From the NCBI GenBank assembly GCA_011772205.1, contig WVZY01000003.1:1-64000 (forward strand): a stretch of 64,000 nt of DNA, written 5' to 3'. Below, piece after piece: positions 26,174-54,493 of this stretch; positions within the stretch are counted from its first letter, which is position 1, and each line of letters begins with the position of its first letter. The notes under the pieces are model-generated. The model was given only the letters and a program-made list of their open reading frames with translations. It did no database searches and was not told the DNA's origin. A program made the position numbers and the translations under genes. Source of the DNA: Candidatus Latescibacterota bacterium (GTDB taxonomy: Bacteria; Krumholzibacteriota; Krumholzibacteriia; WVZY01).

Positions 26174-26292
26174 GTGCCAAGAGAAGAATTATCCAGCTGG
26201 TATTCGGCTGCTTCATCCTTTGGACCCCTCCACAAAATCATACACATCTAGGCATCCTGCATTGGGTGAAGAGCAACCGATTTGGAGAACGG

Positions 26293-27612
26293 TCATTCCC
26301 ATGATAGCAAGACACGTATATCGCGCACGTTGTTGCCTGTCGGTCCGCAGGTAATGTCATCCCCTAATCTCTTGAAGAATGAATAGGAATCCGAGTTTCG
26401 TGAGAAGCTTGCCGAATCCAATCCCATGCGTTTGGCACGCTGCGCGCTGGAACCATCAGCCAATGCACCAGCGGCTGGGGAATTGCCGTCGATGCCATCG
26501 GTTCCGGCGCTCAACACCGCTATTTTTTCACCGGCGATGCGCGGGACACATTCCAGTACGAAAGCTTGATTCCGGCCACCAACTCCGGAGCCGACGACCG
26601 GTGATCGTAATTCTCCACCTGAGATGACGCACACGGGCGTTCCCGGCGACGTTTCTCTCAATTGTCCCAGGTGCTTGAGCAACACATCAGCCGCAGTGGA
26701 AATCTCAAGATCATCCGGTGAGTCGTCTACAACCACTTTCCATCCTGCATTATCAGCGAAGCGTCGCATTGCATCGACCGCGTGTCGGTTTGCGAGCACG
26801 CAGGACCATGCGGATCGGCGAAACGCTGGATCACCGGGCTTGGGTGTATCGGGAAGGGTGGAATCGTTCATCAGCTCTATAACCGACGCGGGAAGCTTCT
26901 GCCGAAGCTCATAGCGTTCAGCGATCTGACGGAATTCTTCCAGGGTCGATTCATCAGGCATGGTAGGCCCCGAGGCAACGCTGGATTCACATCCCTCCGG
27001 TACGTCGGATACGTACAGCGTCACCTGACGTGCCGGCGATGCTGCGAGTGCCAGGCGGCCGCCTTTGACTCGAGAAAGGTGTTTCCGTATTACGTTTGTC
27101 TCCACGATGTCTGCACCACATGTAACTAGAGTACCGTACATCGATTCCGTATCCCTGAGCGATACGCTGTCGTCAAAGGGGAGTTCCATAAGCGCAGAGC
27201 CTCCACCTGACATTAAAAACAGCACCAAGTCATTTTCAACAGCCGCGTTGGCGATCTCCAGTGCTGCTCGCGCTGCTTGCAGACTTTGTTTATTTGGAAC
27301 GGGATGCCCACCAGCAAAGCATTTGAAGCCAGCCCATTCTCGCTGCGGTAATCTCGGTGCAGATATAACTACCCTGATCCCAGATAACTCGAAAGTGTCG
27401 ATCAACCAGCTCGTCATTGGGACAGCGGCTTTTCCAAAGGCAATCAACCGCACTCGTTCTGCATTGGTAGTGATGTTTTGAAGATACCCCGATAAGACCG
27501 CTTCAAGGTCACTCCGAAAGCGTTCCATGGCTTTCACGAGATCGATTTCTTTTATCGTATGGGAAAATCCTTCCCGGAGAAGCTTTTTAGCGTTGTTTGA
27601 AGTTACTCTCAT
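26293..27612 (-). CDS. Glycerate 2-kinase (GckA/TtuD, MOFRL family)
   Basis: A 439-residue kinase that phosphorylates D-glycerate to 2-phosphoglycerate, feeding it to glycolysis. The N-terminal DUF4147 domain has LIAFGKAAVPM, FAGGHPVPNKQS and LFLMSGGGSALMELP; the C-terminal MOFRL domain has CVISGGELRSPVVGSGVGGRNQAFVL and LSAGTDGIDGNSPAAGA, the family signatures. In this neighbourhood its likely source of glycerate is hydrolysis of mannosylglycerate by the GH38 enzyme at 40171-42702 (inference). It is on the same strand as, and downstream of, the Cys-less amidotransferase-like gene. Confidence 0.92.
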   Translation of the reverse strand: MRVTSNNAKKLLREGFSHTIKEIDLVKAMERFRSDLEAVLSGYLQNITTNAERVRLIAFGKAAVPMTSWLIDTFELSGIRVVISAPRLPQREWAGFKCFAGGHPVPNKQSLQAARAALEIANAAVENDLVLFLMSGGGSALMELPFDDSVSLRDTESMYGTLVTCGADIVETNVIRKHLSRVKGGRLALAASPARQVTLYVSDVPEGCESSVASGPTMPDESTLEEFRQIAERYELRQKLPASVIELMNDSTLPDTPKPGDPAFRRSAWSCVLANRHAVDAMRRFADNAGWKVVVDDSPDDLEISTAADVLLKHLGQLRETSPGTPVCVISGGELRSPVVGSGVGGRNQAFVLECVPRIAGEKIAVLSAGTDGIDGNSPAAGALADGSSAQRAKRMGLDSASFSRNSDSYSFFKRLGDDITCGPTGNNVRDIRVLLSWE

Positions 27613-27789
27613 CGCGACTGTTTAGGAAGTTTATTTTTTCGCTTGAGCATAGGGGCGCGCATGTAATGTGGAGCTGAATTGGCGAACTTTTTCGCTCCAT
27701 TACAGCAAAAGATGCAAAAAACAGTTTGGAACATCAGTCATGAACTCTTCATGATGTACGTGTGGTCATGCTTCACATCTTTGTAATGC

Positions 27790-29334
27790 TCATATTTTTT
27801 CCAAATATGTTTCGATTTTTTTTCTTTCAGATTCGTTCAGTATCCCCTTTCTATGCGCTACCGAATCTATATAAAACTGAATGTGTTCGTCAACAAGCCA
27901 CAATTTCTTATCCGCATAACGATAACCATAGCGTGCCGAGCTCGACAGATATTCATCACTAATATCTGCGCTCTTGTAGTTTACCTTTCTAACGAGATCT
28001 GGTGTGAAATCATTCTGCTTGGCAACTGCATCCAAAAGATCATGAATCCCGGTGCCATGTTGAGCGGCGTCCTTCCCGCGGTCGGCAAACTCTTGGGGTA
28101 TGCCAACTTTTTTTGCCAAAGCCCGATGGGGTCGCTTCCCCATCGCGTCATTCGGTGAGTTGATTTTGAGTTGCGGAGGAACGCTCATTGCGAGGTTCAC
28201 AAAAGCAGTATCAATATAAGGGAAAACTGCTTTCAGTCCGTTTGCCCATGCGAGCTTGTTCTCCCGGTCCAGCGTTTCGATATCTGCTCGTGTTAAATCC
28301 CCCCAATTCTTTTCGGAGTAAGCGTCGTATCCTTCTTCGGCGATGACCCTGGGATACCAGCGATAACCTCCCCATAACTCATCCGGCCCCTGGCCCGACA
28401 CAATCAATTCCACGCCATCATGAGCGGCCATCTCTTCAGCCGCATAAACGCCAATGCCGGCTTCAACCTGGACAAAATCTCTCTCCTCCACAGCCTTTAC
28501 GACTTTAGGGATTAAGTTAGCGACATCCGAGACGTCTAGTTTTCGAACCTTATGGTTCAGGCCGAATTCTCGCGTGAAGCGTTCAGCGAAGGCCACGTCA
28601 ATTGCGTCCTTGGTACCTGCCGTATAAACGATGATCTCTTCACCCATTTCCCGGGCATACTTTGACGTCAACATGGTCGAGAGCGTGCTGTCCACTCCGC
28701 CGGATAGCAAGGCTCCAATTTTTTTCTGCCCCTCGAGCCGTTTTTCAAACGCTTGAATAAGAAGCTGCTCGTACTCCTTGACAATACTGTCAAAGTCTTG
28801 CTGCTTGAAATCTCTTTTCTTAAAGTGAGCAGCTTCAACGATCTTGATACCATTTTCGTCCAACACGGCTGACGTACCCGCCCGTAGTGGTTTTACGTTT
28901 CTCAGGCCGATGGACCACAAAGCCTTTTTCTCGCATGCATAGGCTAGAATCTCTTCGTTTTTTGCATAAAAAATAGGCCTTCGGCCAAGAGAATCTCGCG
29001 CAACCGCGATTTTATTGCCATCGGTCGCAGCTAATGAGTATTCTCCGCCAAGTGTCTGTATTGTTGATCTGAATATTTTTTCAAGATCACCGGGCATTTC
29101 TTTTATATCACCAAAGATTTGCCCATCGTAAACGTAGGCATGTTGTTTTTTAACTGGTTCATTGAAGGATACCAAAGCTAATATTCCAATCGAGGCAAGC
29201 ATTTTAGAGCTCTGGATCACAGCCATTTCTGATGTCACCACCCAAGCATGTTTGTTTTTTCGAGATAGATTGTGCAGCATCGTGTTGGCATATTCGAATA
29301 CATCGCTTTTGCGCGTGCTTAGGATCCCGAGCAT
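27790..29334 (-). CDS. Asparagine-synthetase-like protein lacking the glutaminase cysteine
   Basis: A 514-residue relative of AsnB. The N-terminus reads MLGILS where active glutamine amidotransferases have MCGI, and the RGPD and NGEIYN motifs are absent, so the glutaminase site is dead. The start is secure because AAGGAGATTTGTA directly precedes it. The C-terminal synthetase domain is intact, with PP-loop LSGGVDSTL (about 212), SGQGPDELWGGY and FPYIDTAFVNLA. Its C-terminus SSSARYGYRYADKKLW matches the same region of the active paralogue at 36172-37899. It may use free ammonia, work as a partner subunit of that paralogue, or act on another acid. AT-richer than the flanking genes. Confidence 0.8.
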   Translation of the reverse strand: MLGILSTRKSDVFEYANTMLHNLSRKNKHAWVVTSEMAVIQSSKMLASIGILALVSFNEPVKKQHAYVYDGQIFGDIKEMPGDLEKIFRSTIQTLGGEYSLAATDGNKIAVARDSLGRRPIFYAKNEEILAYACEKKALWSIGLRNVKPLRAGTSAVLDENGIKIVEAAHFKKRDFKQQDFDSIVKEYEQLLIQAFEKRLEGQKKIGALLSGGVDSTLSTMLTSKYAREMGEEIIVYTAGTKDAIDVAFAERFTREFGLNHKVRKLDVSDVANLIPKVVKAVEERDFVQVEAGIGVYAAEEMAAHDGVELIVSGQGPDELWGGYRWYPRVIAEEGYDAYSEKNWGDLTRADIETLDRENKLAWANGLKAVFPYIDTAFVNLAMSVPPQLKINSPNDAMGKRPHRALAKKVGIPQEFADRGKDAAQHGTGIHDLLDAVAKQNDFTPDLVRKVNYKSADISDEYLSSSARYGYRYADKKLWLVDEHIQFYIDSVAHRKGILNESERKKIETYLEKI

Positions 29335-29534
29335 TACAAATCTCCTTGAGTTAGTGGAAAGACGCAGTCACTACAACACCTTGTATAACTTGACATATCT
29401 GGAATCGTAATTAAAATAATATGCAAATATATAATGATATAAATATAATCTCAAAATAATGATAATACCAGCCTGCATATTCTGATCGATATTGAACCTA
29501 GTAAATCACGATCGAGTGAAATTTAATTGTGAAG

Positions 29535-30254: not shown

Positions 30255-30305
30255 TTTAACTCCAAGTAGTTAACAAGGCAGCAAGGGATTCGATAACTTT
30301 GGATC

Positions 30306-31715
30306 TCAGTAAGCTATTCTGTAGATCACATAATACTTGTTGATATTGCTTACATAGCGAGTAGGTTCACGACCTATGCGATGCAGTGCAGCAAGCTCAA
30401 CATTGCGGAACCAGCGATCCGGGTCCAGGCCGATCTCTCGCGCGTGCATCCTGGCCCGGGCGATGGCCGTGGGACCTGCATTGTAAGAAGCCAGGGCGAA
30501 ACGAATGCGATCGCGGGGTCTGATCTCTGGCGAATCAAAGTAGTGATCGCGCAGAAACGCAGGATACCTCACACCGGCATGAATATTGTTATCCAACTTA
30601 TATACATCCTCAATGTTCACATTCTCGTCTGTTGACGTTTCCTGTCTGATCTGCATCAAACCAATTGCTCCAGCTTGGCTTTTCTTACCATGATCGAGCC
30701 TCGATTCCTGGTATGCGAGCGCCATAATCAACCGCCAATCGAAGCCGTAACGTTCGGCGTATTTCTTGAACAGTTCCTCATACTGCATGGCTTTACGCCG
30801 GTCTTTCTCATCCAGCGGATTTGTGATCCAAGACGTCTCCCTGTAATATCGATTGAAGTAGATGTTGCCTAGCAGGGTTCCCCTCCGACGCGTCTTGAGG
30901 AATTTGTTGCAACTTGCCTTCAGCTTGGGATTGTTCTTGCGCACCATCCAGGCGATGTTGACATTGGAACGGAGCACGATGTTTTCATGCACAGCTATAT
31001 GGTTGAGCAAGCGCTTCCATATACCTGCGATGTAACTATCGCAGACCGTCATGCTGACTGCGCCGCTGCTGACCATTTCCAGGATGTCCTCCGTTTCGAG
31101 ATCCCCACTCGATTCAAGGATGCGTACCAATTCCTTTCCCTCACGGGCGAACCGTTCATTGAGCGAAAGCAGAGAGTGGTAATAGCTACTGTTCTTTCTG
31201 ACGAAAACCTCCTTACCCGCAAGTTCCTCAATGCTTCGGGGCGCCGCAGTCCACTCGTTAGTTATCAGGACTTCCTTTATCCCGGTGAGATAAGGCCGAG
31301 TGAAATCAACTAGCTTTTTCCGCTCGGGTATGCTCGTCATTTGAGCGGCAACGATGTCACCGTATCCATCTAGTAGTTTTTCGATCAGCTGATCGCGCTG
31401 GCAAGGTATGAACTCGAGCACAACATTGAGTCCACTGCGCCCAATCCGTTTGTTCAAGTATTGCTCGTAGTCTTCGAGCAGCTCGTACTCGAATCCAAAG
31501 AAACGGCCCTTCTCGGTAAAAAATCCAGTCTTGTTGAAAACCGTGAGCACGCGGATGTACCGGCGCTCTAGCAGACTGTCCAAATCATCCGTGTAGGTCC
31601 GTAGCAGATGTGCACCAAGAGGGTGAGAGGGATTTTTATCCTGTGCCTCGCAGTATGAAAGGCTACAAAGAAAGCCGAGCACCAACACAATTGATGAACT
31701 AATTGTATATCTCAT
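30306..31715 (-). CDS. MltF-like lytic transglycosylase with a substrate-binding domain
   Basis: A 469-residue periplasmic protein. Signal peptide (ISSSIVLVLGFLCSLSYC), then a family-3 solute-binding-like domain (about 50-290; RVLTVFNKTGFF, FEYELLEDYEQYL, GYGDIVAAQMTSIPERKKLVDFTRPY), then an SLT domain (about 325-460) with catalytic Glu in ALAYQESRLDHGKKS, GAIGLMQI and FALASYNAGPTAIARA. MltF cleaves peptidoglycan glycan strands to 1,6-anhydro-muropeptides, and the binding domain controls activity. The start abuts the stop of the PRC-barrel gene, so it belongs to the mannosylglycerate operon, perhaps linking wall remodelling to turgor change (inference). Not preceded by its own promoter as far as I can see. 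Confidence 0.88.
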   Translation of the reverse strand: MRYTISSSIVLVLGFLCSLSYCEAQDKNPSHPLGAHLLRTYTDDLDSLLERRYIRVLTVFNKTGFFTEKGRFFGFEYELLEDYEQYLNKRIGRSGLNVVLEFIPCQRDQLIEKLLDGYGDIVAAQMTSIPERKKLVDFTRPYLTGIKEVLITNEWTAAPRSIEELAGKEVFVRKNSSYYHSLLSLNERFAREGKELVRILESSGDLETEDILEMVSSGAVSMTVCDSYIAGIWKRLLNHIAVHENIVLRSNVNIAWMVRKNNPKLKASCNKFLKTRRRGTLLGNIYFNRYYRETSWITNPLDEKDRRKAMQYEELFKKYAERYGFDWRLIMALAYQESRLDHGKKSQAGAIGLMQIRQETSTDENVNIEDVYKLDNNIHAGVRYPAFLRDHYFDSPEIRPRDRIRFALASYNAGPTAIARARMHAREIGLDPDRWFRNVELAALHRIGREPTRYVSNINKYYVIYRIAY

Positions 31716-32438
31716 TTATCTTTTTGCGGATATATTCTCGTTAGCTCGCAAATTTGCGAAATATTTAAAGAAAGCATCGGTCTCCGATGAGCTCAGGTGA
31801 ATGGACGGATCATAACGTGGTGCGCTCCTCAAAACGCCACTGGAAATGTCTGTAGTTACTCTCGCTTTTTGAATATTGATACCGGTAATCCAAGGCACGG
31901 GGAGAAGCACGTTCTTTCTGAAGGGCCATGCTCGCGTATTGATGAGAATACATTGAATGATCCATGTATCGGCATTTACAACAAAGTTTTTTATACGGTT
32001 CAAAACGCGATCGGAAGTCTCGATGCGGTATCTGGAAAGCACCTTCATAGTCAGTAAATCCGGATCGCGAATCATATCAGGTTGTTCGCTGCCCGTTTCC
32101 GTGTTCGCGACCTTGAGAGAAGCGGGTTGTGATGCTGCACGACGGCCTTCAATGACGACAAATTTCCCTTTCACGAGTTGGTGGGGAACATGAATGATGT
32201 CATCAGCTAAAAGATCTTTTCTTAAAGCCGATACCTCAATTTCATTTCTTTGCTTTGACTTCTGGATGATCGTATGCGGAATGAGGATTTTCTTACGACG
32301 GAATCGTTTCCCAACGCTACATACGATGTACTGGACAGTCCAGACAACGTGATCAATTATCAAGTCATGGGATTTGCCTATTTTGCCATCCTCTGCAATG
32401 ACATCCTTGTCTATCAGGTCCTTTATCTCGAGCAGCAT
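31716..32438 (-). CDS. PRC-barrel domain protein, two repeats
   Basis: A 240-residue protein with two PRC-barrel-like segments: one at about 1-75 (LLEIKDLIDKDVIAEDGKIGKSHDLIIDHVVWTV broken by family-typical turns) and one at about 125-200 (KVLSRYRIETSDRVLNRIKNFVVNADTW and IQCILINTR). This duplicated PRC arrangement occurs in many soluble stress-related proteins of unknown function. There is no signal peptide. It is co-transcribed with the phosphatase upstream (16-base gap) and the lytic transglycosylase downstream (no gap). No catalytic residues are apparent. Confidence 0.65.
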   Translation of the reverse strand: MLLEIKDLIDKDVIAEDGKIGKSHDLIIDHVVWTVQYIVCSVGKRFRRKKILIPHTIIQKSKQRNEIEVSALRKDLLADDIIHVPHQLVKGKFVVIEGRRAASQPASLKVANTETGSEQPDMIRDPDLLTMKVLSRYRIETSDRVLNRIKNFVVNADTWIIQCILINTRAWPFRKNVLLPVPWITGINIQKARVTTDISSGVLRSAPRYDPSIHLSSSETDAFFKYFANLRANENISAKR

Positions 32439-32454
32439 TTGCTAGTATCAACCC

Positions 32455-33279
32455 CTAATGCGATAAAAAATCAATAACAAATCGGTTCCAACCCAATGGA
32501 CCGACACCCAGGACTTTAATGATGTTGTCCGGGCGCTCGATTGTTTCCCATGTGTTAGGCGATTTCTGAACGAGTACAGGGATGTCGACTGCATTGAAAA
32601 GGGGAACGTCATTGTAACTATCACCAATGCCAATGAGTGAAATCTCACCTAAGAGTTGACGATACAGGCTTGCGAGAATAGTTACTGCCTTTCCTTTATC
32701 GTTCTGACCTGATATATTGCAAAATCTTCTGCCTTTATTGAGTCTTAAGCCATGCTTCTTTAGCGCAGCTTCTACCTTCAATGCCTCATTGGGCTCCAGC
32801 ACTGTTACCAGGGTTTCTTGATATTCTCTGGCCATTGCAAGGGATGCTTCTTGTTTATCGAGCCCTGTAATGTTCGAGACTTCCTCAATGGACAAATCAC
32901 CATAACCATTGAGCTGAATTCCTGTTTCATTCTGTACTGAAAGGAGAGCTTCTCGTATAACCGGATAAGATGTCCCTAATTCAAAGACTTTGAAAATACC
33001 GATTGATTTATCGTATTCGAATTCAAAGGGAAAGTAATCGGCTTCAATGAATATAGCACCGCCGTCTTCGACGATGAATGGATGATTTATGCCGAGTTTC
33101 GCCCGGTATATCATCTGCTCACTGCGTGTTTTTGAAGAACAAAATACTAGCGGTATATCTTTGTATTGTATAAGATTGAGCCCGGCAAGCGCTTGACGGT
33201 ATTCATATGATTTTTGGTCCAGGAGAGTGCCGTCGAGATCTGTGAAAATAACGTATGGGTTAGAATCTGGATGGTCCAT
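32455..33279 (-). CDS. mpgP: Mannosyl-3-phosphoglycerate phosphatase
   Basis: A HAD-superfamily phosphatase of 274 residues that would remove the phosphate of mannosyl-3-phosphoglycerate to give mannosylglycerate. Motif I is FTDLDGTLLD (nucleophile and acid Asp), followed by VFCSSKTRSEQ, the substrate-specificity cap (FIVEDGGAIF, EEVSNITGL), the Lys in NDKGKAV and the metal-ligand motif IGDSYNDVPLF. The cap motifs match the MPGP subgroup. ATG 33279 sits behind AAGGTGG; an in-frame GTG at 33288 gives three more residues. It is separated from the upstream symporter gene by about ten bases. The neighbouring mpgS gene strongly supports the assignment. Confidence 0.92.
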   Translation of the reverse strand: MDHPDSNPYVIFTDLDGTLLDQKSYEYRQALAGLNLIQYKDIPLVFCSSKTRSEQMIYRAKLGINHPFIVEDGGAIFIEADYFPFEFEYDKSIGIFKVFELGTSYPVIREALLSVQNETGIQLNGYGDLSIEEVSNITGLDKQEASLAMAREYQETLVTVLEPNEALKVEAALKKHGLRLNKGRRFCNISGQNDKGKAVTILASLYRQLLGEISLIGIGDSYNDVPLFNAVDIPVLVQKSPNTWETIERPDNIIKVLGVGPLGWNRFVIDFLSH

Positions 33280-33289
33280 GATTACCACC

Positions 33290-34930
33290 TTACACGATGG
33301 ACTGAATGAGATATGAAAATAAAATGATCAAAAAGAAAAACATGATAACCGATACATATGTGGATTCGATTCTTCCTGCATAGCCGAAACTGGGGCGAAA
33401 CAGAACCACTCCCCGACGGTAGCTCCCCCAAAATGCTCTCAGTGAATGAAGGCCAACAGCAATAACAAAGACAACCATAAATCCGATGAAGTTCCACCAT
33501 AGCCAAGATATATCAGTTAATCGCCAGAGACCGATATTTACTATGATCCCGGTGATTACCCCTACTTTAACCTGAATTGGTGAGACGGAGCGTGTTGCCA
33601 TTCCAATAAAAAAAGCAGCCAAAACAGGTCCGTAAAGCAAGCTGCCAACAGCGTTGATCAATACAATCGTTGTTTGACGTGTTGCTTCAGCGGCATGTGC
33701 GAAGTTTAGTGCAACAAGAACACAGAAGGCACCCCAAAATACCGTCAGCCCTTTGGAGACAATTAGATAATGCCTTTCCGAAGCTCTTGGTTTGAAGTAT
33801 GTGCGATAGAAATCTTGCATTGTTACGGCACTAAGGGAGTTGATGGCGGAGTCGAGACTCGACATCAGCGCAGACATAATGGATACAAAAATTAATCCAA
33901 CAACGCCTGCGGGAAGAAAAGCTAAGATAAACATCGGTACCATTCGGTCGGGATCATCTTGAAGCACATTCATGATGCCCTTTATGTCGGTATCCAGCTG
34001 TGCCGCCATACTGCTCACATGCTCAGGATTTGCAAAAACGGCGCCGATGAAAACTCCCATCAAACAATATAATAGTACGATCGGAAATCGGCTGAATGCA
34101 TTGAACAATAGAGACCTCTTTACATTGCGAATCGTCCCGACTGACAGCTCTCTCTGTACTTGGCTCTGGTCGCAGCCATAGTATGATGCGTAAAGAAATA
34201 TTCCCCCGATTGTCATCGGCCAAAATGCGTATTCTCCTCCGCTTGATGTTCCCCAGCGGCTGAAATCCAAAATACGCAAACGATCTGGACTCAATGCTCC
34301 CCATGCATTCCCCCAGCCAGCGAGCGACAACGCAGCGATCCCGCAAATCAAAATACCTGCAAAAATGATCGACATCTGGAAAACATCACTGATGATGACT
34401 ATCTTCATCCCACCAAGCGCATCGTAGATGACAGTAACTGCCCCGATAAGTAGGATCGCTTCGCTGGTCGAAAGAGGTAATGCAGTGGAGAGTATCAAAC
34501 CTCCGGCTAAGACGGACACCGCTGTTGCCAGAGCACGCCCAAGCTGAAAGAGCATGCTTACCAAGGCCCTTGTGCTCCGGTCGAATCGCTGCTCCAGGTA
34601 TTCGTAAATGCTAACGTATCTTCCCTGGTGGAGTCTTGGGATGATCCAGATTATTACGAACAGAATACCAAGGGGAACGCCGAACTCGTAACAGAGCCAT
34701 TTCAGACCACCGTTTTCCTTTAGTGCAACGAATGCAGGTGCCGATACGAAACTGATGGCTCCCAACTGGGTTGCCATTGTTGACAATCCTGATTGCCACC
34801 ACCGAATTTTTCGGCCTGCCAAATAATAGTCGCTGAGATTGTGATGACCTCGGCCGAACACGAAAGCAAGAACGACTAGGCCAGCAAAATAGCCTGCTAT
34901 CACCATCCAATCGAATATTGTCATGATCAA
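33290..34930 (-). CDS. Sodium/solute symporter (SSS family)
   Basis: A 546-residue integral membrane protein with about 13 hydrophobic segments. SSS-type features are NLSDYYLAGRKIRWWQSGLSTMATQLGAISFVSAPAFVA at the first helices (read in parts), GGMKIVIISDVFQM, YYGCDQSQVQRELS and a Ser-rich SIMSALMSSLDSAINSLSAV, the region that binds sodium in relatives. It lies inside the mannosylglycerate operon between mpgS and mpgP, so Na+-driven uptake of mannosylglycerate, its amide or another compatible solute is the natural inference; substrates in this family (sugars, proline, others) cannot be read from sequence. Confidence 0.85.
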   Translation of the reverse strand: MIMTIFDWMVIAGYFAGLVVLAFVFGRGHHNLSDYYLAGRKIRWWQSGLSTMATQLGAISFVSAPAFVALKENGGLKWLCYEFGVPLGILFVIIWIIPRLHQGRYVSIYEYLEQRFDRSTRALVSMLFQLGRALATAVSVLAGGLILSTALPLSTSEAILLIGAVTVIYDALGGMKIVIISDVFQMSIIFAGILICGIAALSLAGWGNAWGALSPDRLRILDFSRWGTSSGGEYAFWPMTIGGIFLYASYYGCDQSQVQRELSVGTIRNVKRSLLFNAFSRFPIVLLYCLMGVFIGAVFANPEHVSSMAAQLDTDIKGIMNVLQDDPDRMVPMFILAFLPAGVVGLIFVSIMSALMSSLDSAINSLSAVTMQDFYRTYFKPRASERHYLIVSKGLTVFWGAFCVLVALNFAHAAEATRQTTIVLINAVGSLLYGPVLAAFFIGMATRSVSPIQVKVGVITGIIVNIGLWRLTDISWLWWNFIGFMVVFVIAVGLHSLRAFWGSYRRGVVLFRPSFGYAGRIESTYVSVIMFFFLIILFSYLIQSIV

Positions 34931-34948
34931 AATCTGGGGAGTATCTTT

Positions 34949-36175: not shown

Positions 36176-37899
36176 GATTTACTCGTCCTTCCATTGCTGA
36201 GTCCAAGGGCGGTTAATTTCTCTCTTGTGGCATTCCATTGCAATTTTGGCAAGCCTGTCAGCAGTCCAATCTCTGCAGCAAGCGTATCGAGGTAGTATTG
36301 TACATGCGGTGACGGTTTCCAGAGACTCCTGTCACCGTAGCGATAGCCATAGCGAGAGGAGCTGCCAAGCTTTTCCTGCACCGATATGTTCGAGTCATAA
36401 TTGGCTGCATTTAGGAGATCTTTTGAATATCCATGACTCCTTGCGAGCTCCTCGAAAACATCATGAACGTTGGCTCCATGCTGCGCGGCTTCCTTTTCCC
36501 GAAAAGCTACTTCTTCAGGAACTCCTAAAACTATTGAAAGAGCTCGATGTATTCGTTTCTGTAACGGATCCCCTCCCTTACGGATCTTCAGCTGAGGTGC
36601 AATTGCGAACGCTACTTCGATAACCTGTGGATCAACGTAAGGGACTCTGAGCTCCATACTGTGGTTCATCGCGATTTTGTCCTCGCGCTCGAGGCACTCC
36701 TTATACAAGAGAAATGTGTCTTCCCACGAACGTTCAACGAACTGATCGTATCCTTCACGATCGACGATCGCAGCGTACCAAGGATATCCCCCGAACAACT
36801 CATCAGCACCTTGCCCGGTAAGGATCACGCGCTCCCCTGCTTCCTGAGCCATGCGAATCGATGCGAAAATCGGGATCGCAACTTCCACTTGATTCAGGCT
36901 GTGATCTTCAATGGCTTTCATGACTTCAGGGATGAGTTCTTCGATTTCATTCTTGGACAGGGTCTTGACTCGCAGTGGAAAACCATGTTCTTTAGCGGTT
37001 TTTTTCGCCCACGTGATATCCGGAGCATCTTCGCCTCTTCCAGCTGTGTAGCACGTAAAGGGCACTCCCAACTGCTTTACAAGAGAAGCGATCATAAAGC
37101 TATCTATCCCACCCGAGTAGATGATTCCGACGTGATCCCTATCATGTATCCTTTTCCATACCGCTTCCTTCAATTCATTTTTATAAGCACTAAGTGCTTT
37201 ACTCACATCTTCAATTGTATCATTTGTTCTAATTTGATCAGGCGTCCAGAAAGCGCGAAGTTCATGACCGTTCTCTCCTAGAATCATCATATGCCCCGGA
37301 GGGAGCCGATGGATTTCCACGTCATTTCCAAAAAGAGCTTTCAAGGATTTTTTTTCAGAGGCAAATGCAGTCAATCCTTTTCCGAAGCAGTAGTAAAGTT
37401 GTCGCACGCCGATTCGGTCACGGGCTATGATTGTGTGATGCTGATCGGTGACCGCGGTTCCATACACTCCGTCTAAATGGGGGAGCACCTTTTCGAGTGC
37501 ATACACCAAATCACCGCGGTATTCATTTGCGAGAAGCTTAAAGAAAACTTCGCTATCGCTGCTGCTCGCCGGCTGAGCCGGTCCCATGAGGCTTTTCCAC
37601 AACTTACGGTAGTTATAGATCTCTCCATTGTGGAGCAAGCTCAAGCGACCGTCCGGTGTTTGAAATGGTTGGACTCCTGTTGCCCCCCCCGTTATAGCAA
37701 GCCTCACATGTCCCAACGCAATCGTCCCAAATTGATTTCGAAAATCAAGTGCTTCGACAGTTGATTTCCGCTGGCAATGAGTTCCAACGACCATACCGGC
37801 GCCATCCGGGCCACGGTGGTGCTGCGCTCGAAGCATTGCTTCCAGCAGAGGACCGAGGTCTCTGGACGTTTTGCTGACGATACCTGCTATTCCACACAT
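36172..37899 (-). CDS. Asparagine-synthetase-like glutamine amidotransferase
   Basis: A 575-residue class II amidotransferase/ATP-pyrophosphatase. The glutaminase half is intact: MCGIAGI with the catalytic Cys2, QHHRGPDGAG and LLHNGEIYNYRK. The synthetase half has YSGGIDSFM (PP-loop, about 266), LTGQGADELFGGYPWY and SMELRVPYVDP. Ordinary AsnB makes asparagine, but here the gene is locked between a MarR gene (3-base gap) and mpgS (4-base overlap). By analogy with AsnO, which amidates the osmolyte NAGGN, I infer it amidates mannosylglycerate (or its phosphate) to mannosylglyceramide. Plain asparagine synthesis remains the alternative. The C-terminal SSSRYGYRYGDRSLW is shared with the Cys-less paralogue at 27790. 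Confidence 0.82.
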   Translation of the reverse strand: MCGIAGIVSKTSRDLGPLLEAMLRAQHHRGPDGAGMVVGTHCQRKSTVEALDFRNQFGTIALGHVRLAITGGATGVQPFQTPDGRLSLLHNGEIYNYRKLWKSLMGPAQPASSSDSEVFFKLLANEYRGDLVYALEKVLPHLDGVYGTAVTDQHHTIIARDRIGVRQLYYCFGKGLTAFASEKKSLKALFGNDVEIHRLPPGHMMILGENGHELRAFWTPDQIRTNDTIEDVSKALSAYKNELKEAVWKRIHDRDHVGIIYSGGIDSFMIASLVKQLGVPFTCYTAGRGEDAPDITWAKKTAKEHGFPLRVKTLSKNEIEELIPEVMKAIEDHSLNQVEVAIPIFASIRMAQEAGERVILTGQGADELFGGYPWYAAIVDREGYDQFVERSWEDTFLLYKECLEREDKIAMNHSMELRVPYVDPQVIEVAFAIAPQLKIRKGGDPLQKRIHRALSIVLGVPEEVAFREKEAAQHGANVHDVFEELARSHGYSKDLLNAANYDSNISVQEKLGSSSRYGYRYGDRSLWKPSPHVQYYLDTLAAEIGLLTGLPKLQWNATREKLTALGLSNGRTSKS

Positions 37900-37902
37900 A
37901 GT

Positions 37903-38577
37903 TTAACTGCCTTCATTTTCACTGCTTGGATGGGTGCGTTTGGTGTTTGGCTCATCGGCCGGCAAGGACCCGCTCTCACCCTCCTCAGCAGAGCTCAACT
38001 GGCCTGTTTCCAGGATCGGGGTCGCCTCGATGTGACGGACTTCCATCAAATCGACGATCCGCTCTAGTGCCAATGCGATAGTGGATTGCTCTATATCAGG
38101 TAGATTCTTCAAGGCATTGGCAAGCCCCTCATGCAAAGGAGATGGTGCTTTCTGTACGATTTGAATCCCGCTCGGCGTTGCCCTGACATTCACCACCCTG
38201 CGATCCTTGGTATCTCGAAGCCTCAGCACCAGGCCTTTGCTCTCCAACCGGTCCAGCACGCCAACGACCGTGCTAGGGCTCAAATGGATATGTTGCGCAA
38301 TTTGTCCTATCGATAGAGGCCCATGCTCGACGATCGCAATGAGGCAAATAAGCTGTGGACCCGTGATCTGGTGGGTTGACTTGAGCTTTTGGGAATGGAT
38401 ATCTACAGCACGAATGATTCTCCTGAGTGCTTGCAGGATTAGCTGATCATAATGCATTGCACGAGCAGGCATATCCCCGGTGCCGTTTTGGATTGCATTG
38501 TCACCAGTACTGGATCCAGCAGCGGACTTCTCCTCGCCGCCGTTCGGGTCAGGTGCATCTTTCCCATTCGGTGTCAT
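37903..38577 (-). CDS. MarR-family transcriptional regulator
   Basis: A 224-residue regulator. A hydrophilic N-terminal tail (about 1-38) precedes the winged-helix domain, with TGPQLICLIAIVEHGPLSIGQIAQHIHLSPSTVVGVLDRLESKGLVLRLRDTKDRRVVNVRATPSG (read in parts) as recognition helix and wing. A disordered acidic tail ends the protein. The start follows AAAGGAATACCAGAA. It is first in the operon, and its own promoter carries a palindrome over the -10 region, so autorepression is likely. MarR regulators (EctR) control ectoine clusters in other halophiles; by analogy this one probably responds to osmotic state and controls both divergent operons. Confidence 0.88.
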   Translation of the reverse strand: MTPNGKDAPDPNGGEEKSAAGSSTGDNAIQNGTGDMPARAMHYDQLILQALRRIIRAVDIHSQKLKSTHQITGPQLICLIAIVEHGPLSIGQIAQHIHLSPSTVVGVLDRLESKGLVLRLRDTKDRRVVNVRATPSGIQIVQKAPSPLHEGLANALKNLPDIEQSTIALALERIVDLMEVRHIEATPILETGQLSSAEEGESGSLPADEPNTKRTHPSSENEGS

Positions 38578-38662
38578 TTCTGGTATTCCTTTGCTAAAAA
38601 TATGCCAATAATATCAGGTGAAATAATTAATAAACAAATATTTTGTATTGAAAATATATTTC

Positions 38663-38695
38663 TTACATGCTAACGATGTAACTATAGGCTGTCAA
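38663..38695 (-). promoter_or_regulatory. Promoter and candidate MarR operator of the mannosylglycerate operon
   Basis: On the minus strand TTGACA (38695-38690), 17 bases and TAGCAT (38672-38667) form a promoter. The palindrome TTACAT-N7-ATGTAA at 38663-38681 covers its -10 region, a typical place for a repressor site. A related sequence occurs at 38733-38750. Confidence 0.65.
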
Positions 38696-38732
38696 GGTCT
38701 AATCGAGAATTAACCGATTAAGCAACAATTAG

Positions 38733-38766
38733 TTACATTTTAGCGAGTTAGAGGCTGGAATATAAT
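38733..38766 (+). promoter_or_regulatory. Promoter and second operator-like site for the divergent operon
   Basis: A perfect TATAAT at 38761-38766 is preceded, 16 bases upstream, by TTTAGC as a weak -35. The sequence TTACATTTTAGCGAGTTA (38733-38750) overlaps that -35 and resembles the left part of the palindrome at 38663 (TTACATGCTAACGATGTAA), so the same regulator may bind here. Confidence 0.5.
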
Positions 38767-38801
38767 GATCGAAAAGCAAATGCTTCTTTATAAGGGATAA
38801 T

Positions 38802-40154
38802 ATGTGTGATATCTTAATAGCACTCCCGGACGTGTCACAGACCGGTCGCGTCATCTTTGGCAAGAACAGCGACCGGCCGGTTGGAGAATGCCAGGTTCTG
38901 TACCGCTCTCGGGGTGGATCTCGCGGTACCAAGGCACCCATCAAATGTGCCTATGTGGAGGTTCCTGGAGTCCGAACCACTCTAGCCACTCTGGGCTGCA
39001 GGCCTTACTGGTGCTGGGGATATGAGACTGGCATGAACGAGGCGGGCGTCATCGGGGGCAATACCGCTATTTACACCCGTTCATTCTGGCTGGAGGAAAA
39101 CCAGGAGTTACGCGGTTTGATAGGAATGGAGTTGCTCAGGCTCGGGCTGGAGCGTGGCCATACAGCTGAGGAAGCCGTCTCCGTGATTGTTGGGCTCCTG
39201 GAAAAATACGGACAATGGGGTTCCGCCGTCCACGGAAAACGACATCCCGAAGGCTGCTATGAGAATGCATTTCTGCTCGCCGACAAGGACGAAGCATGGA
39301 TTCTGGAAACTACGGGGCGCCGCTGGGCTGCATCCCGATATACGACGGGAGTACATGCGCTGTCAAACCAATTAACCATTCGGAACCACTGGACGAAAGG
39401 CAGCGATGACCTCCTGGAGTATGGGATGGCACAGAAATGGTGGAACCCAGAGCAAGGACCGCTCGATTTTGCCCTTGCCTACAGTGATCATGAACACTAC
39501 CCGCGCCAAGTCTCCCACATTCGATGGCGGAGGGCAATTCGGCTTCTAGAAAAAAACGCTGGTAACATCGATGCAGCTTTGATGATGGCATTCCTGCGTG
39601 ACCACTACGAAAGCACATTCCTTGAAGGGCCGCAGTTCAATCCTTACCTCCCTGACTTTCTCACGATATGCATGCACGATTCTCCCGCCGACTTCACATG
39701 GGGCAACACGGCGACCTCTGTCGTGGCCGAGATCAATCCAGAAAACCCTGCTTTAACGCCGTTCTGGTGCTGCTATCAGCCCCCCTGCTCGAGTGTTTAC
39801 CTTGTGTACTTTCTCAATGAAGCTATACCGGAAATTGTGGCGTCTCCTGGGTCAGCGGGTCTTCACTCCGCATCGCCGCTCGATGCACCAAAGGACTTCT
39901 TCGACGAGAAATCGCTCTGGTGGCGCCTTTACCGCATTGTCGGTGCCGTGCTGCAATCAACGATCGAGAGAATGGAAACCATTCGTGCACTTCTTGATCC
40001 GATTGAAGACATGGGTTTATCGCGAGTAAAATCGTTATTCAGCCAAGAAACGACTATACAAACAGGATCCATGCGTGCGTTAATCGATGAGCAGAGCGCG
40101 GAATTGGAAAACGCGATCAATCGCATAGAGTTCGAATGGAAGTTGTGGAAATGA
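38802..40154 (+). CDS. Secernin/C69-like Ntn-hydrolase
   Basis: A 450-residue protein starting MCDILIALP, so removal of Met would expose Cys2 as the N-terminal nucleophile, the arrangement of Ntn-hydrolases of the secernin/C69 group. Other family features are GRVIFGKNSDRPVGE, GYETGMNEAGVIGGNTAIYTR, CYENAFLLADKDEAWILETTGRRW and HALSNQLTI. Relatives cleave amide or peptide bonds, but many have unknown substrates. It has no signal peptide. It is first in the operon divergent from the mannosylglycerate genes and 16 bases before the GH38 gene. I infer it may hydrolyse the amide of mannosylglyceramide, reversing the amidotransferase; dipeptidase activity is the alternative. Confidence 0.8.
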   Translation: MCDILIALPDVSQTGRVIFGKNSDRPVGECQVLYRSRGGSRGTKAPIKCAYVEVPGVRTTLATLGCRPYWCWGYETGMNEAGVIGGNTAIYTRSFWLEENQELRGLIGMELLRLGLERGHTAEEAVSVIVGLLEKYGQWGSAVHGKRHPEGCYENAFLLADKDEAWILETTGRRWAASRYTTGVHALSNQLTIRNHWTKGSDDLLEYGMAQKWWNPEQGPLDFALAYSDHEHYPRQVSHIRWRRAIRLLEKNAGNIDAALMMAFLRDHYESTFLEGPQFNPYLPDFLTICMHDSPADFTWGNTATSVVAEINPENPALTPFWCCYQPPCSSVYLVYFLNEAIPEIVASPGSAGLHSASPLDAPKDFFDEKSLWWRLYRIVGAVLQSTIERMETIRALLDPIEDMGLSRVKSLFSQETTIQTGSMRALIDEQSAELENAINRIEFEWKLWK

Positions 40155-40170
40155 ATGGCTTGAACAAAGG

Positions 40171-42702
40171 ATGGCGATAATTAAACGATCAAGGATGAAA
40201 ACAATCTATCTGGTTCCACACGCACACTACGATGTGGTTTGGGCGATGACGAAGGAGGATTATGTAAATATCCACAAAAAGCTTTTGCGCCAGGCATTGG
40301 AAATGATTCACAAGTCTGATTTCAAATTTATCATCGAACAAACCCACCTCCTCGAACAAGTCGAATCCGACGATCCTCAGTTATTCTCCGAAATTGAATC
40401 CGCGATTCTCGATGGACAAATAGAAATCGTCGATGGGGAGTATCTTATGCCTGATCCGATGATTCCTGCTGAGGAGGTACTGGTTAGAGAAATTCTCATC
40501 GGAAAGATGTATTGTAAAGACAAGTTCGGCATCGAAGTTCCCGTCGCTTGGATGTCCGATGGTTTTGGACTCAACGCGCAACTGCCCCAGATATACAAAA
40601 AATCAGGTTACAAATGGCTCGCCTTCCGACGAGGGCTCCCAAAGTCCATCGGGATGCGCGCGAGTGAATTCCAATGGGAAGGCATCGACGGGACGAGGAT
40701 CCCTGCCCATTGGATGCCGCTCGGTTATCGCGCAGGTCTCGATCTGAGTAAATGGGACGAAAGCTACTCAAAACTGGAGAAGTTGGCTACAACTCAGAAT
40801 ATCTTGATGCCGTGCGGGAGTGGCGGCATGCTCATCCAGGAAGATATCCCCAAGGCTGTCGAGAATTGGAACAACAGCAATAGAAAAGCCAGGATGGTGA
40901 TCGCTACTCCTCGTGAGTTCTTTGAAGCCGTGCAAGAAGAGGGCGAGCCTTCGACAGTCTTTCGTGGTGAATTGTACAGCTCGGAATTGGAAGACATTTT
41001 CCCCGATGTCGTTTCCAGTCGCATATCGCTCAAACTGGCCATTCGAGAATGCGAAGATTTGATAAAGTCTATCGAAAAAGCTGCGGCCCTCGCTTATCTC
41101 CAAGGCAATCGATATCCACAAGGGCGATTGGCGGATTCATGGAGAAAAATGCTTTTTCTTGCGTTTCATGATGTTATGCCGAGTTGTGGTATCGATGAGA
41201 TCTACGACGAGGCCTGGCAGTATGTGTCCGATATCAAAAAAATGGCCTCTTCTTTTTACCACTCGGCCGTCAATTCCTTGCCTATGGATCAGGTTCCCGG
41301 CATTGGAATCATGGTGTTCAATCCCCACAGTTGGAAGATAACCGACTGGGTGGAGGTCGATCTCCGGCTGGGAACGGGATGGAGTAAAGAGCCAGGTGTC
41401 TACTTCAACGAAAAGGAGGTCGTGAGCGAGGCAAGGGATATTGAACGCTGGGACGACGGCAGTATTCAGCATGCAAAGCTGGGCTTTGTAGCAACGGTTC
41501 CACCGCTTGGATATCGTATCTACGAAGTCCGTCCAGCCAGCAAACAATTCAAGAGTAAAAAGATCAAGATCAAAGAGAACGACGTGTCGACGAGATTCTT
41601 TGATCTTCGAATCGATCCGGATACTGGGATCATTGAGGTATTCGACAAAGAGGGATCTGAGATACTCAAGGGGAATGAGGTGGTAATCGATGCGGAACTC
41701 GGTGACTTATATTTCCACAAGAGCTATCTCGACCAGTGCATTGGCTCTGAAAGCGGCGAAGGCATCCGCTTTGGCGCATTCAAACCTCAGGAACCAAGAA
41801 TCGAAAAAGGGCCCCTTAGAACAGTGATTTCGTTTACAAATTCTTACCATTGTTTGCGATGGCCTTATTATTTAACAGATAAATTTGAATCCATTCTCCA
41901 CAGACATAATACGCTCGACATCGTAAAGCGCGTAATTGTGTACAACGATATTCCCAGAATCGATTTCTTCACCGAGCTTGATTCGAGGCAATCCCACATC
42001 CGTGTAAGGCTCCGATTCGACACATGTATGGCAGCACCCGTATACACCAGGGAGACACAGTTCGGTGCCATTGAGCTACCTCATGCACGCACAATGGAAG
42101 AAGGAGTCAAGATGCCTTCTCTGACCTGGCTTAGTGCCGAAGATGGGGAGCGCGGTCTTGCGTTTTTATCAAAGGGCGTTCCGATCAACGAGGTTCGAGG
42201 CGGAGAGATCTACTGCACGCTTCTGCGCAGCGTGTCGGTTCTTTCGGCGGATGGTGTGAGTGGCCCCCTGATACCAACACCAGGCGCATTGGAGCTGGGT
42301 AAGCATACTTACTATTACTCCGTTTATCCTCACAAAGGAGATTGGAGGTCGGCGCGAGTTCCCCGAGAAGCATACCGGTTTGGCGAGGGTCTCGTAGGCT
42401 TCCAAGTGGATCGACTTGCTACTCCGCGCGAGTATGAGACATTTCGGCTGCAGCCCGATAATCTCATCGTCTCGGCCGTAAAAAAGGCTGAGAGTGAAGA
42501 AGCTCTAATCCTTCGATTCTTTGAAACAGACGGGCAGGCATGCCGGGCGAAGCTTAGAACACCACCCAATATTCGCAGTGTTTCGACCGTAAATCTGCTC
42601 GAGGAGGAGATAAAAGATGAGAATAACATCCTCTTTCGAAAAAGTAATTTAGAACTTGATGTAAGGCCTTTTGAAATCGTAACTCTCAAGATGCTCTTTT
42701 GA
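40171..42702 (+). CDS. GH38 alpha-mannosidase, probable mannosylglycerate hydrolase
   Basis: An 843-residue cytoplasmic glycosidase. The GH38 zinc-binding motif is VPHAHYDVVW (His17, His19, Asp21) and the nucleophile is Asp130 in WMSDGFGLNAQLPQI. The mid and C-terminal beta domains of GH38 follow, with LAFHDVMPSCGIDEIYDEAW as the helical middle domain and zinc His region. E. coli MngB, a GH38 enzyme of similar length, cleaves (phospho)mannosylglycerate, and the gene context here points the same way: products would be mannose and glycerate, the latter taken up by the glycerate 2-kinase. The start may be 40171 or 40195 (MKTIYLVPHAH), neither with a well-spaced ribosome site. Confidence 0.88.
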   Translation: MAIIKRSRMKTIYLVPHAHYDVVWAMTKEDYVNIHKKLLRQALEMIHKSDFKFIIEQTHLLEQVESDDPQLFSEIESAILDGQIEIVDGEYLMPDPMIPAEEVLVREILIGKMYCKDKFGIEVPVAWMSDGFGLNAQLPQIYKKSGYKWLAFRRGLPKSIGMRASEFQWEGIDGTRIPAHWMPLGYRAGLDLSKWDESYSKLEKLATTQNILMPCGSGGMLIQEDIPKAVENWNNSNRKARMVIATPREFFEAVQEEGEPSTVFRGELYSSELEDIFPDVVSSRISLKLAIRECEDLIKSIEKAAALAYLQGNRYPQGRLADSWRKMLFLAFHDVMPSCGIDEIYDEAWQYVSDIKKMASSFYHSAVNSLPMDQVPGIGIMVFNPHSWKITDWVEVDLRLGTGWSKEPGVYFNEKEVVSEARDIERWDDGSIQHAKLGFVATVPPLGYRIYEVRPASKQFKSKKIKIKENDVSTRFFDLRIDPDTGIIEVFDKEGSEILKGNEVVIDAELGDLYFHKSYLDQCIGSESGEGIRFGAFKPQEPRIEKGPLRTVISFTNSYHCLRWPYYLTDKFESILHRHNTLDIVKRVIVYNDIPRIDFFTELDSRQSHIRVRLRFDTCMAAPVYTRETQFGAIELPHARTMEEGVKMPSLTWLSAEDGERGLAFLSKGVPINEVRGGEIYCTLLRSVSVLSADGVSGPLIPTPGALELGKHTYYYSVYPHKGDWRSARVPREAYRFGEGLVGFQVDRLATPREYETFRLQPDNLIVSAVKKAESEEALILRFFETDGQACRAKLRTPPNIRSVSTVNLLEEEIKDENNILFRKSNLELDVRPFEIVTLKMLF

Positions 42703-42793
42703 TCGAGCATCCTCATATAAATGTTGGTGCAAGATCCTCTCAACAATTTTGAATAATATTAAACCTCGGAAGCATAAAGGGGGGAGGCGTGAC

Positions 42794-43960
42794 ATGGATT
42801 TAATGGATTTAGTAAGTAAAGATGAATTGAAAGCTTTGATCGATGTTCGAGAGGGACCGTGTATCTCGTTGTATATGCCAACATTCAAAGCGGGGAGGCA
42901 AGTTGAACAAAATCGTATTCGCTATAAAAACCTGTTGCGTTCTGCGGAACGACGCTTGCTGGGTTACGGGATGCGCTCAAAAGAAGTCCGGTTTCAGATG
43001 GATCCTTTTTTGTCCCTCCTGGAGGACAGCCTGTTCTGGCAATATCAATGTGACGGATTAGCCATTTTTGCGAGTCGAGAAGATTTTTGTTGTTACCGCT
43101 TGCCGCTGAGTTTCAATGAGCTTGTAGTTGTAACAGATCGTTTCCACATCAAACCTCTGCTGCCACTTCTGTATGGAGATGGCCGATTCTATGTTCTTGC
43201 AATTAGTCAAAACAATATTCGTTTGTTCCAAAGCACAAGAGATAATATGAACGAAATGAAGCTATCAGATTCTCCCAGAAGCCTCGGTGAGGCCCTCAAA
43301 TATGATCTGAATCAAAAGCAACTCCAATTTCATACAGGAACGCCACCGAGAACCGGAAAGCGGGATGCTGTGTATTATGGTACAGGCGCTGGTGACTTCG
43401 ATGTGAAAAATGCCATATTGAGATATTTTCGAGATGTTGATAAAGGTATCCATTACCTGCTAAAAGAAGAGAGAGCTCCCTTGATATTAGCCGGTGTTGA
43501 TTATCTGTTCCCTATTTATAAAGAAACGAATTCCTATCCTTATTTGATGGATAATGGAATTGCTGGTAATCCGGAAAAATTGAATTTAACGGAGCTGCAT
43601 GATCGAGCTTGGCAGATTGTCCAGCCCTACTTTCAAAAAGAAAAGAATCAAGCTGAAGAAAAGTGCGCGGAATTGAGAAGTATAAAGAGCAAATTGATTT
43701 CAAATGATGTTAGAGAAATAGCTCCTGCGGCGTTTCATGCCCGCATCAAGAGTCTATTTGTAGCAATTGGCATTCAACTTTGGGGTTCATTCAACTTGCG
43801 AACAAGTGAAGTGTACCTGCACGATGAACCGGCAACAGGTGATGAAGATCTATTGGATTTTTCAGCTATTCATACGTTTCTGAATGGTGGTTTTGTTTAT
43901 GCAGCCGCACCAGAACAAATACCAAATTATGAACCTCTAGCCGCTGTGTTTCGTTATTAA
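42794..43960 (+). CDS. baeRF7-type release-factor-like protein
   Basis: A 388-residue protein that matches, as I recognise it, the bacterial archaeo-eukaryotic-release-factor family 7. It has an N-terminal domain LMDLVSKDELKALIDVREGPCISLYMPTF (in parts) with RYKNLLRSAERRL, a middle segment FYVLAISQNNIRLFQST, and a C-terminal L7Ae-like part (PLILAGVDYLFPIYKE, INS-like FLNGGFVYAAAP). The family is related to eRF1/Vms1 and is thought to act at stalled or dormant ribosomes, but its function is unproven. The start ATG 42794 follows GGAGG by eight bases. It is probably co-transcribed with the GH38 gene and may adjust translation during osmotic stress (inference). Confidence 0.75.
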   Translation: MDLMDLVSKDELKALIDVREGPCISLYMPTFKAGRQVEQNRIRYKNLLRSAERRLLGYGMRSKEVRFQMDPFLSLLEDSLFWQYQCDGLAIFASREDFCCYRLPLSFNELVVVTDRFHIKPLLPLLYGDGRFYVLAISQNNIRLFQSTRDNMNEMKLSDSPRSLGEALKYDLNQKQLQFHTGTPPRTGKRDAVYYGTGAGDFDVKNAILRYFRDVDKGIHYLLKEERAPLILAGVDYLFPIYKETNSYPYLMDNGIAGNPEKLNLTELHDRAWQIVQPYFQKEKNQAEEKCAELRSIKSKLISNDVREIAPAAFHARIKSLFVAIGIQLWGSFNLRTSEVYLHDEPATGDEDLLDFSAIHTFLNGGFVYAAAPEQIPNYEPLAAVFRY

Positions 43961-44100
43961 GAATTCTACCGCCAATCTTCCCTGGCAGTTCGATATCAAA
44001 ATGATTTTCGTGCAAGTTTATGAGCCGCATAAGGTCCGCGGCTTCGTGTAGATATTTCCAATAGGTTAATTGATATTAATTTGAGATATTTGTCAAACTC

Positions 44101-44106
44101 TATAAT
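44101..44106 (+). promoter_or_regulatory. -10 element before the BON-domain gene
   Basis: A perfect TATAAT lies 36 bases before the GTG start in an AT-rich segment. No -35 at ideal spacing is convincing, so an activator or a general-stress sigma factor may be needed. Confidence 0.4.
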
Positions 44107-44142
44107 AAAGTGGACTTAGAATAAATATGAAAGGAGTATTCA

Positions 44143-44811
44143 GTGAACGCAGGTAATGATATTCAATTAGCATTATTGATTCGCAACTCTCTGATGAAAG
44201 ATGAGCGTCTGTCTGCTCATTCAATAGAAGTTGCAGTAGTCAACGGAGCAGCTACGCTTACGGGCTCTGTTCCGTCGTATCGACGAAAGCTCGCAGCAAT
44301 ACATATTGCAGAGTCGATACGCGGGTGCTTGGATGTCGTTGACAAAATCATAGTTGAGCCTCCCGGTGGAGTTTCAGACGAGGAAATCGCTGAGAACACA
44401 CGAAGCGCTTTGGAAACAAGTGCTGACATAACGAAGGAGGCGATTACCGTGTTAGTCAAGGATGGTGTTGTTACTCTCCAGGGGACGGTCTCCAGCCAGT
44501 GGGAGAGCGTTCTAGCTGAAGATATAACTCTCAACTCCCGTGGCGTACGAAAAGTTCGGAATCTCCTCCTCGTGGAACCTGCGTGCAAGGCGGAAGATGT
44601 AGAGCTTACCAGAAGTATCATGGATACGCTGTCCCATACTGCTAACCTCGAAAATCAAGAAGTGCGCGTGGCTGTGACCGGAAATAAAGCAGTCCTTTCC
44701 GGCAGAGTATCCGAGCTTTGGCAGAAAAAAAGAGCTGATGAGGTTACCAAAAGATTTCCGGTGGTTCTGTTGCGCAATGAAATCGCCGTAGGACAGGATG
44801 GAAAACAATAG
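44143..44811 (+). CDS. Triple BON-domain protein
   Basis: A 222-residue protein made of three consecutive BON domains (about 1-75, 76-147 and 148-220). Each has the pattern IxxAL...I.V.V.nG.vtLtG.V, for example IEVAVVNGAATLTGSVPS, ITVLVKDGVVTLQGTVSS and VRVAVTGNKAVLSGRVSE. BON domains bind phospholipid or maintain envelope integrity; E. coli OsmY has two and is induced by hyperosmotic shock. No signal peptide is seen with the GTG start at 44143, which is fixed by AAAGGAG nine bases upstream. The BON-osmotic link fits the adjacent osmolyte island. Confidence 0.85.
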   Translation: MNAGNDIQLALLIRNSLMKDERLSAHSIEVAVVNGAATLTGSVPSYRRKLAAIHIAESIRGCLDVVDKIIVEPPGGVSDEEIAENTRSALETSADITKEAITVLVKDGVVTLQGTVSSQWESVLAEDITLNSRGVRKVRNLLLVEPACKAEDVELTRSIMDTLSHTANLENQEVRVAVTGNKAVLSGRVSELWQKKRADEVTKRFPVVLLRNEIAVGQDGKQ

Positions 44812-51930: not shown

Positions 51931-51940
51931 TTGGTTGCTC

Positions 51941-54461: not shown

Positions 54462-54493
54462 GAGGGTCGGGTCTGTCCGATCATATTTCGTCT

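Follow-up and report, generated by a model that had tools for sequence, protein, structure and literature searches.

An amidotransferase gene in a mannosylglycerate operon

We analysed a 64,000-nucleotide stretch of DNA from Candidatus Latescibacterota bacterium (assembly GCA_011772205.1, contig WVZY01000003.1, positions 1 to 64,000; hereafter the window), in which an island at 26,293-44,811 carries genes for the synthesis of mannosylglycerate, a sugar acid that protects cells against salt and heat, and for a class II glutamine-dependent amidotransferase that we call AmdT. Using open reading frame (ORF) calling and domain searches we found a near-gapless operon of seven genes on the minus strand, in the order marR, amdT, mpgS, SSS symporter, mpgP, PRC and mltF (Table 1). 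The spacings along this order are 3, -4, 18, 1, 16 and 0 bp, the negative value being a 4-bp overlap of amdT and mpgS. Genes for an Ntn-hydrolase and a GH38 enzyme run divergently from the operon on the plus strand, and a glycerate kinase gene lies at the far end of the island. The named genes, their order and the overlap were all found as the initial annotation had described them; it had overlooked a second AsnB paralogue, asnB2.

The MpgS/MpgP route to mannosylglycerate is known from Thermus, Rhodothermus and archaea. As in that pathway, both enzymes of the island exceed their NCBIfam equivalog cut-offs, which confirms their first identification and assigns them to the two-step pathway. The island differs from the known pathway in that a symporter gene sits between mpgS and mpgP and an amidotransferase gene lies upstream. 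The corresponding amide, mannosylglyceramide, was described in Rhodothermus marinus decades ago, and we found no gene assigned to its formation in the literature that we searched, namely open-access papers.

AmdT has an altered acceptor pocket

We aligned AmdT with Escherichia coli AsnB, part of human asparagine synthetase (ASNS) and dozens of relatives, using 31 asparagine synthetases as a reference set. Residues are numbered as in human ASNS, whose Glu-364 is Glu-348 in E. coli. AmdT shares the fold of asparagine synthetase B (E. coli AsnB and human ASNS), and the glutaminase residues Cys1, Arg49, Asn74, Gly75, Glu76 and Asp98 are all intact in both window and R. marinus AmdT. The PP-loop SGGxDS and the catalytic Lys-466 are present, and Asp-367, Glu-368 and Arg-403 are also retained.

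In contrast, Glu-364, Asp-400, Asp-334, Arg-339 and Tyr-375 are replaced. Position 364 is Gln in all four proteins of the AmdT clade and Glu in 31/31 asparagine synthetases, while position 375 is Trp in the clade, followed by Tyr at 376, and Tyr in all 31 references. Asp-400, likewise present in 31/31, has become Cys (window AmdT) or Thr, and Asp-334, again found in 31/31, has become Ser or Gly in AmdT but is kept by AsnB2. Two further residues that are invariant in the 31 proteins have changed in the clade, Arg-339 to Glu or Gly and Ser-470 to Gln. In human ASNS, Glu-364, Asp-367 and Asp-400 form the pocket for the alpha-amino group, and the E364A and E364Q variants are inactive with aspartate (PMC6748925). 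Judging by the changed residues, aspartate is an unlikely substrate of AmdT. A carboxylic acid that has no amino group, such as mannosylglycerate, would fit the pocket.

A parallel with AsnO

AsnO amidates N-acetylglutaminylglutamine (NAGG), the osmolyte precursor in the pathway to N-acetylglutaminylglutamine amide (NAGGN), and the NAGGN operon of Pseudomonas aeruginosa (PA3459-PA3461) is repressed by the adjacent MarR regulator PA3458 and carries a peptidase gene (PMC8070244). In the window, a MarR regulator, an amidotransferase, a solute synthase and a nearby hydrolase are laid out in the same way. Like AsnO of P. aeruginosa and of the Sinorhizobium meliloti asnO-ngg pair, AmdT is a class II, AsnB-type enzyme encoded in an operon with a solute synthase, and Gln-364, Trp-375 and Tyr-376 are common to all seven AmdT-clade and AsnO proteins compared, the latter coming from three species. 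AsnO converts its osmolyte precursor, an anion, to a primary amide, and we propose a similar conversion for AmdT. The two differ at position 400 (Cys or Thr in AmdT, Pro in AsnO) and in their partner, which is MpgS/MpgP rather than Ngg; ORF calling and domain searches detected no ngg gene in the island.

In our tree, AsnO and AmdT form separate clades, both with support of 100/100. Because the tree separates them, their shared Gln-364, Trp-375 and Tyr-376 look convergent, with long branches making the deep placement uncertain. The possibility that AmdT is itself an AsnO was rejected because of the tree and of its score on TIGR03104 (163 bits, cut-off 570).

AmdT co-occurs with mpgS and is found in Rhodothermus marinus

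We searched for amdT in 80 genomes of the same phylum, 114 of Rhodothermales, 396 of Bacteroidota and 388 of Verrucomicrobiota, about 934 distinct genomes in all; the larger searches scored the best three candidates per genome, so that a weak extra paralogue could escape. The family was found in three genomes, that of the window and those of R. marinus DSM 4252T and AA3-38, whose chromosomes measure 3,261,604 and 3,430,829 bp (PMC6952675). Against the AmdT query, the R. marinus homologues scored 332 and 325 bits and AsnB2 289 bits, and the next-best proteins reached up to 164 bits. These last, from Bacteroidota and Verrucomicrobiota, keep Glu-364 and were rejected as family members on that ground. 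A tblastn search of plasmids returned no mpgS, and the amdT query matched only canonical or other AsnB types there.

Among the 546 genomes scored for both genes, 13 carry mpgS, and all three amdT genomes are among these 13. The probability of this co-occurrence by chance is about 1e-5 when calculated naively, and about 5e-4 when the two R. marinus strains are counted once. R. marinus accumulates mannosylglyceramide, and NaCl favours mannosylglyceramide over mannosylglycerate (PMC1224877). A single scan of genome contigs for mpgS returned two relatives only. In a class-mate genome (G013), MpgS is 65% and the symporter 64% identical (C161 5011-6621; L105 5011-6624), and amdT is not present.

In R. 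marinus DSM 4252T (G089), amdT lies at 2761153-2762817 of the chromosome, on the minus strand (L049 8954-10618). Its product is 38-40% identical to window AmdT, falls in the same clade and has the same pocket signature. The gene is followed by one of the isochorismatase family (L049 8272-8937) and then by an SSS symporter gene, whose product is the best R. marinus match to the window symporter (40% identity; 399 bits, against 127 for the next paralogue). The isochorismatase-family protein retains Cys at the nucleophile position, and ureidoacrylate and N-carbamoylsarcosine amidohydrolases are among its nearest solved and curated relatives. At the same site, four close relatives with mpgS (G131, G139, G498 and G499) have an SSS2-porin-SSS arrangement without amdT and without the hydrolase. 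The two genes are thus a presence/absence cassette between porin and symporter in Rhodothermus-like genomes (L049 8272-10618 compared with L101-L104), and since both are missing at the same site in four relatives, they come and go together. This pair might consist of a synthetase and an enzyme that could reverse its reaction. The locus differs from the window in being unlinked to mpgS, and in pairing amdT with an isochorismatase-family amidohydrolase rather than a C69-like Ntn-hydrolase.

AmdT as a probable mannosylglyceramide synthetase

Together, these findings indicate that AmdT probably makes mannosylglyceramide from mannosylglycerate, glutamine and ATP, which would make it a mannosylglyceramide synthetase. 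We tentatively assign it this missing step because its aspartate pocket is altered, because it neighbours mpgS and because, among the roughly 930 genomes searched, its close relatives were found only in its own genome and in R. marinus. In the proposed pathway, MpgS and MpgP would make mannosylglycerate from GDP-mannose and 3-phosphoglycerate. The N-terminal Cys of AmdT would then hydrolyse glutamine and the ammonia would be channelled to the synthetase domain, where the glycerate carboxylate of mannosylglycerate would be adenylated with ATP and mannosylglyceramide released along with AMP and pyrophosphate. Under salt stress, this would exchange a charged solute, an anion requiring a counter-ion, for an uncharged one. 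By analogy with PA3458 and the NAGGN amide operon, the MarR regulator probably controls the operon. That mannosylglycerate and not its phosphate is the acceptor, that the amide is the product, that MarR regulates the operon and that the Ntn-hydrolase, GH38 enzyme and glycerate kinase act in recycling are all inferences. AmdT most likely represents a new clade of class II amidotransferases that form amide osmolytes.

Several observations weigh against this assignment. The evidence is genomic, only two independent amdT lineages are known, and we know of no report of mannosylglyceramide from the window organism. The initial annotation had proposed the amidation and would have taken the absence of an mpgS-amidotransferase pairing from every other genome as refuting it. 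The proposal gained support from the altered aspartate pocket and from the presence of the family in a known producer, and the pairing holds as co-occurrence, including in R. marinus. Adjacency did not hold: we examined 11 other mpgS loci (from Puniceicoccaceae, Saprospiraceae, Rhodothermales, G013, for which the upstream side only was covered, and others), and amdT adjoined mpgS at none of them. The symporter is also found without amdT, and is therefore tied to cells that produce mannosylglycerate and not strictly to the amide. In R. marinus, going by chromosome coordinates, about 2.2 Mb separate mpgS from amdT, which is near genes of pectin-degradation type.

This last arrangement would suit an AmdT that amidates some other carboxylate, such as a sugar acid, a uronate, a peptide or a secondary metabolite, with the link to mannosylglycerate incidental or indirect. 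AsnB-like enzymes do take diverse substrates, and the symporter has no assigned substrate. However, both amdT lineages carry mannosylglycerate genes, one of them is a known producer of mannosylglyceramide, and in the window amdT is coupled to mpgS in an operon; we therefore regard another acceptor as unlikely, if worth keeping in mind. A related alternative is that AmdT amidates mannosyl-3-phosphoglycerate and that MpgP then dephosphorylates the amide, for which the shared operon of amdT, mpgS and mpgP would be convenient. R. marinus reportedly has two routes to mannosylglycerate, and one of them bypasses the phosphate. The separate amdT locus of R. marinus better suits an enzyme acting on the common end product of two routes, and we give the phosphate-first order very little credence.

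AmdT could also be a normal asparagine synthetase, dependent on glutamine, whose gene lies in an osmolyte operon by chance. The curated asparagine synthase model TIGR01536 (cut-off 267 bits) is passed by R. marinus AmdT with 334 bits and by window AmdT with 285 bits, and AmdT keeps the residues of the glutaminase site and of the PP-loop. Furthermore, no other canonical AsnB was seen in the window genome or in R. marinus, which in R. marinus leaves room for an AmdT that makes asparagine. On the other hand, AmdT carries at position 364 the very residue that abolishes activity with aspartate in human ASNS (E364Q; PMC6748925), and it has lost Asp-400, Asp-334 and Arg-339. Both amdT and a canonical AsnB are missing from the four Rhodothermus-like genomes with mpgS, where asparagine is thus presumably made by another route. 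An asparagine synthetase would also leave the mpgS neighbourhood and the co-occurrence with mpgS unexplained, and we consider this explanation improbable.

With AmdT, the amidation step has a specific candidate gene in a type strain that can be cultured and whose sequence is complete. The combination of Gln-364, Trp-375 and Tyr-376, at which AsnO and AmdT arrived separately, may generally mark AsnB-type enzymes whose acceptor is not aspartate, and could predict which 'asparagine synthetases' in databases make amide osmolytes or other amides.

A glutaminase-degenerate paralogue

The asnB2 gene lies between those for the glycerate kinase and an endonuclease-III-like protein. Its product begins MLGI where AmdT begins MCGI, and its start, ATGCTCGGGATC, is preceded by the ribosome-binding site AAGGAG. 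In the glutaminase site Cys1, Arg49, Asn74 and Glu76 are gone and only Gly75 and Asp98 remain, and the synthetase motifs are intact. Beta-lactam synthetase, which works without ammonia, and CarA have similarly lost the N-terminal Cys and the glutamine-binding residues and retained the synthetase motifs; AsnB2 differs from them in grouping with AmdT (support 98/92, on a long branch, inside the 100/100 clade). A structure predicted from a four-sequence alignment had a predicted local distance difference test (pLDDT) score of 55, too poor for a fold search. A speculative and rather doubtful extension is that the island encodes two amide-bond enzymes for carboxylates of the mannosylglycerate type, with AmdT making mannosylglyceramide and AsnB2 joining the same type of carboxylate to another nitrogen nucleophile to give an undescribed solute.

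Candidate recycling genes

The initial annotation had assigned the Ntn-hydrolase to the reversal of amidation, and the GH38 enzyme and glycerate kinase to the recycling of carbon. We found nothing beyond the position of the genes in favour of these roles, and from that position they are candidates for a recycling arm. The Ntn-hydrolase, a candidate de-amidase, is distantly C69/C45-like and falls below both NCBIfam cut-offs (22 against 250 bits for C69, 34 against 85 for C45). By eye it is secernin-like, and its structure predicted from a single sequence (pLDDT 36) was too poor for a fold search. The GH38 protein, a candidate mannosylglycerate or mannosylglyceramide hydrolase, has the domains of its family and scores 245 bits on the MngB equivalog, for which the cut-off is 1138. 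The kinase itself stands, since both the DUF4147 and MOFRL domains of a type II glycerate 2-kinase are present.

Where the island has a GH38 gene, mpgS of R. marinus is instead adjoined by a gene for an MGH1-like, GH63-type hydrolase. This glycoside hydrolase gene, identified by a Pfam match, lies next to mpgS-mpgP (L028 10541-11899), and a similar MGH1-like gene, judged by eye only, adjoins mpgS in a Saprospiraceae genome (L010 8442-9800).

Genomic context of the island

Table 1. Features of the island, and AsnO proteins used for comparison
Feature	Position	Strand	Evidence or remark
Type II glycerate 2-kinase	26293..27612	-	DUF4147 211 bits, MOFRL 106 bits; NCBIfam equivalogs below cut-off
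asnB2, second AmdT-family protein	27790..29334	-	34% identity to AmdT over 444 aa
mltF, MltF-like lytic transglycosylase with solute-binding domain	30306..31715	-	SLT and SBP_bac_3; MltF model 207 bits, cut-off 354
PRC-barrel protein	31716..32438	-	Pfam PRC 42 bits
mpgP, mannosyl-3-phosphoglycerate phosphatase	32455..33288	-	TIGR02461 250.3 bits, cut-off 244.35
SSS-family Na+/solute symporter, between mpgS and mpgP	33290..34930	-	TIGR00813 201.6 bits, cut-off 184
mpgS, mannosyl-3-phosphoglycerate synthase	34949..36175	-	TIGR02460 468 bits, cut-off 351; PF09488
amdT, class II glutamine-dependent amidotransferase, proposed mannosylglyceramide synthetase	36172..37899	-	GATase_7 and Asn_synthase
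marR, MarR-family regulator, first gene of the operon	37903..38577	-	Pfam MarR 61.6 bits
Candidate MarR operator, perfect palindrome TTACATgctaacgATGTAA	38663..38681		Overlaps the -10 of a promoter-like site for the marR operon (38695-38667, - strand)
N-terminal-Cys Ntn-hydrolase, C69/C45-like	38802..40154	+	Starts MCD; Pfam Peptidase_C69 31.7 bits, cut-off 23
GH38 alpha-mannosidase	40171..42702	+	Glyco_hydro_38N 176 bits
baeRF-family protein, ribosome hibernation type	42749..43960	+	baeRF_family7 170 bits
Triple-BON, OsmY-like protein	44143..44811	+	BON 111 bits in 3 stretches; OsmY model 70 bits, cut-off 174
AsnO proteins compared	L106 2501-4276; L125 801-2588; L126 801-2576		

The palindrome proposed as the MarR operator is, taken alone, not beyond chance. 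A block at about 26000-46000, which nearly coincides with the island, has a GC content of 0.44-0.51, against 0.53-0.59 in its flanks. Because this is a low-GC segment in a window of higher GC, it suggests that the block was acquired or maintained as one unit. Downstream of the island, positions 48617-61102 of the window encode several Ser/Thr protein kinases, two of them with TPR fusions, and a ThyX thymidylate synthase.

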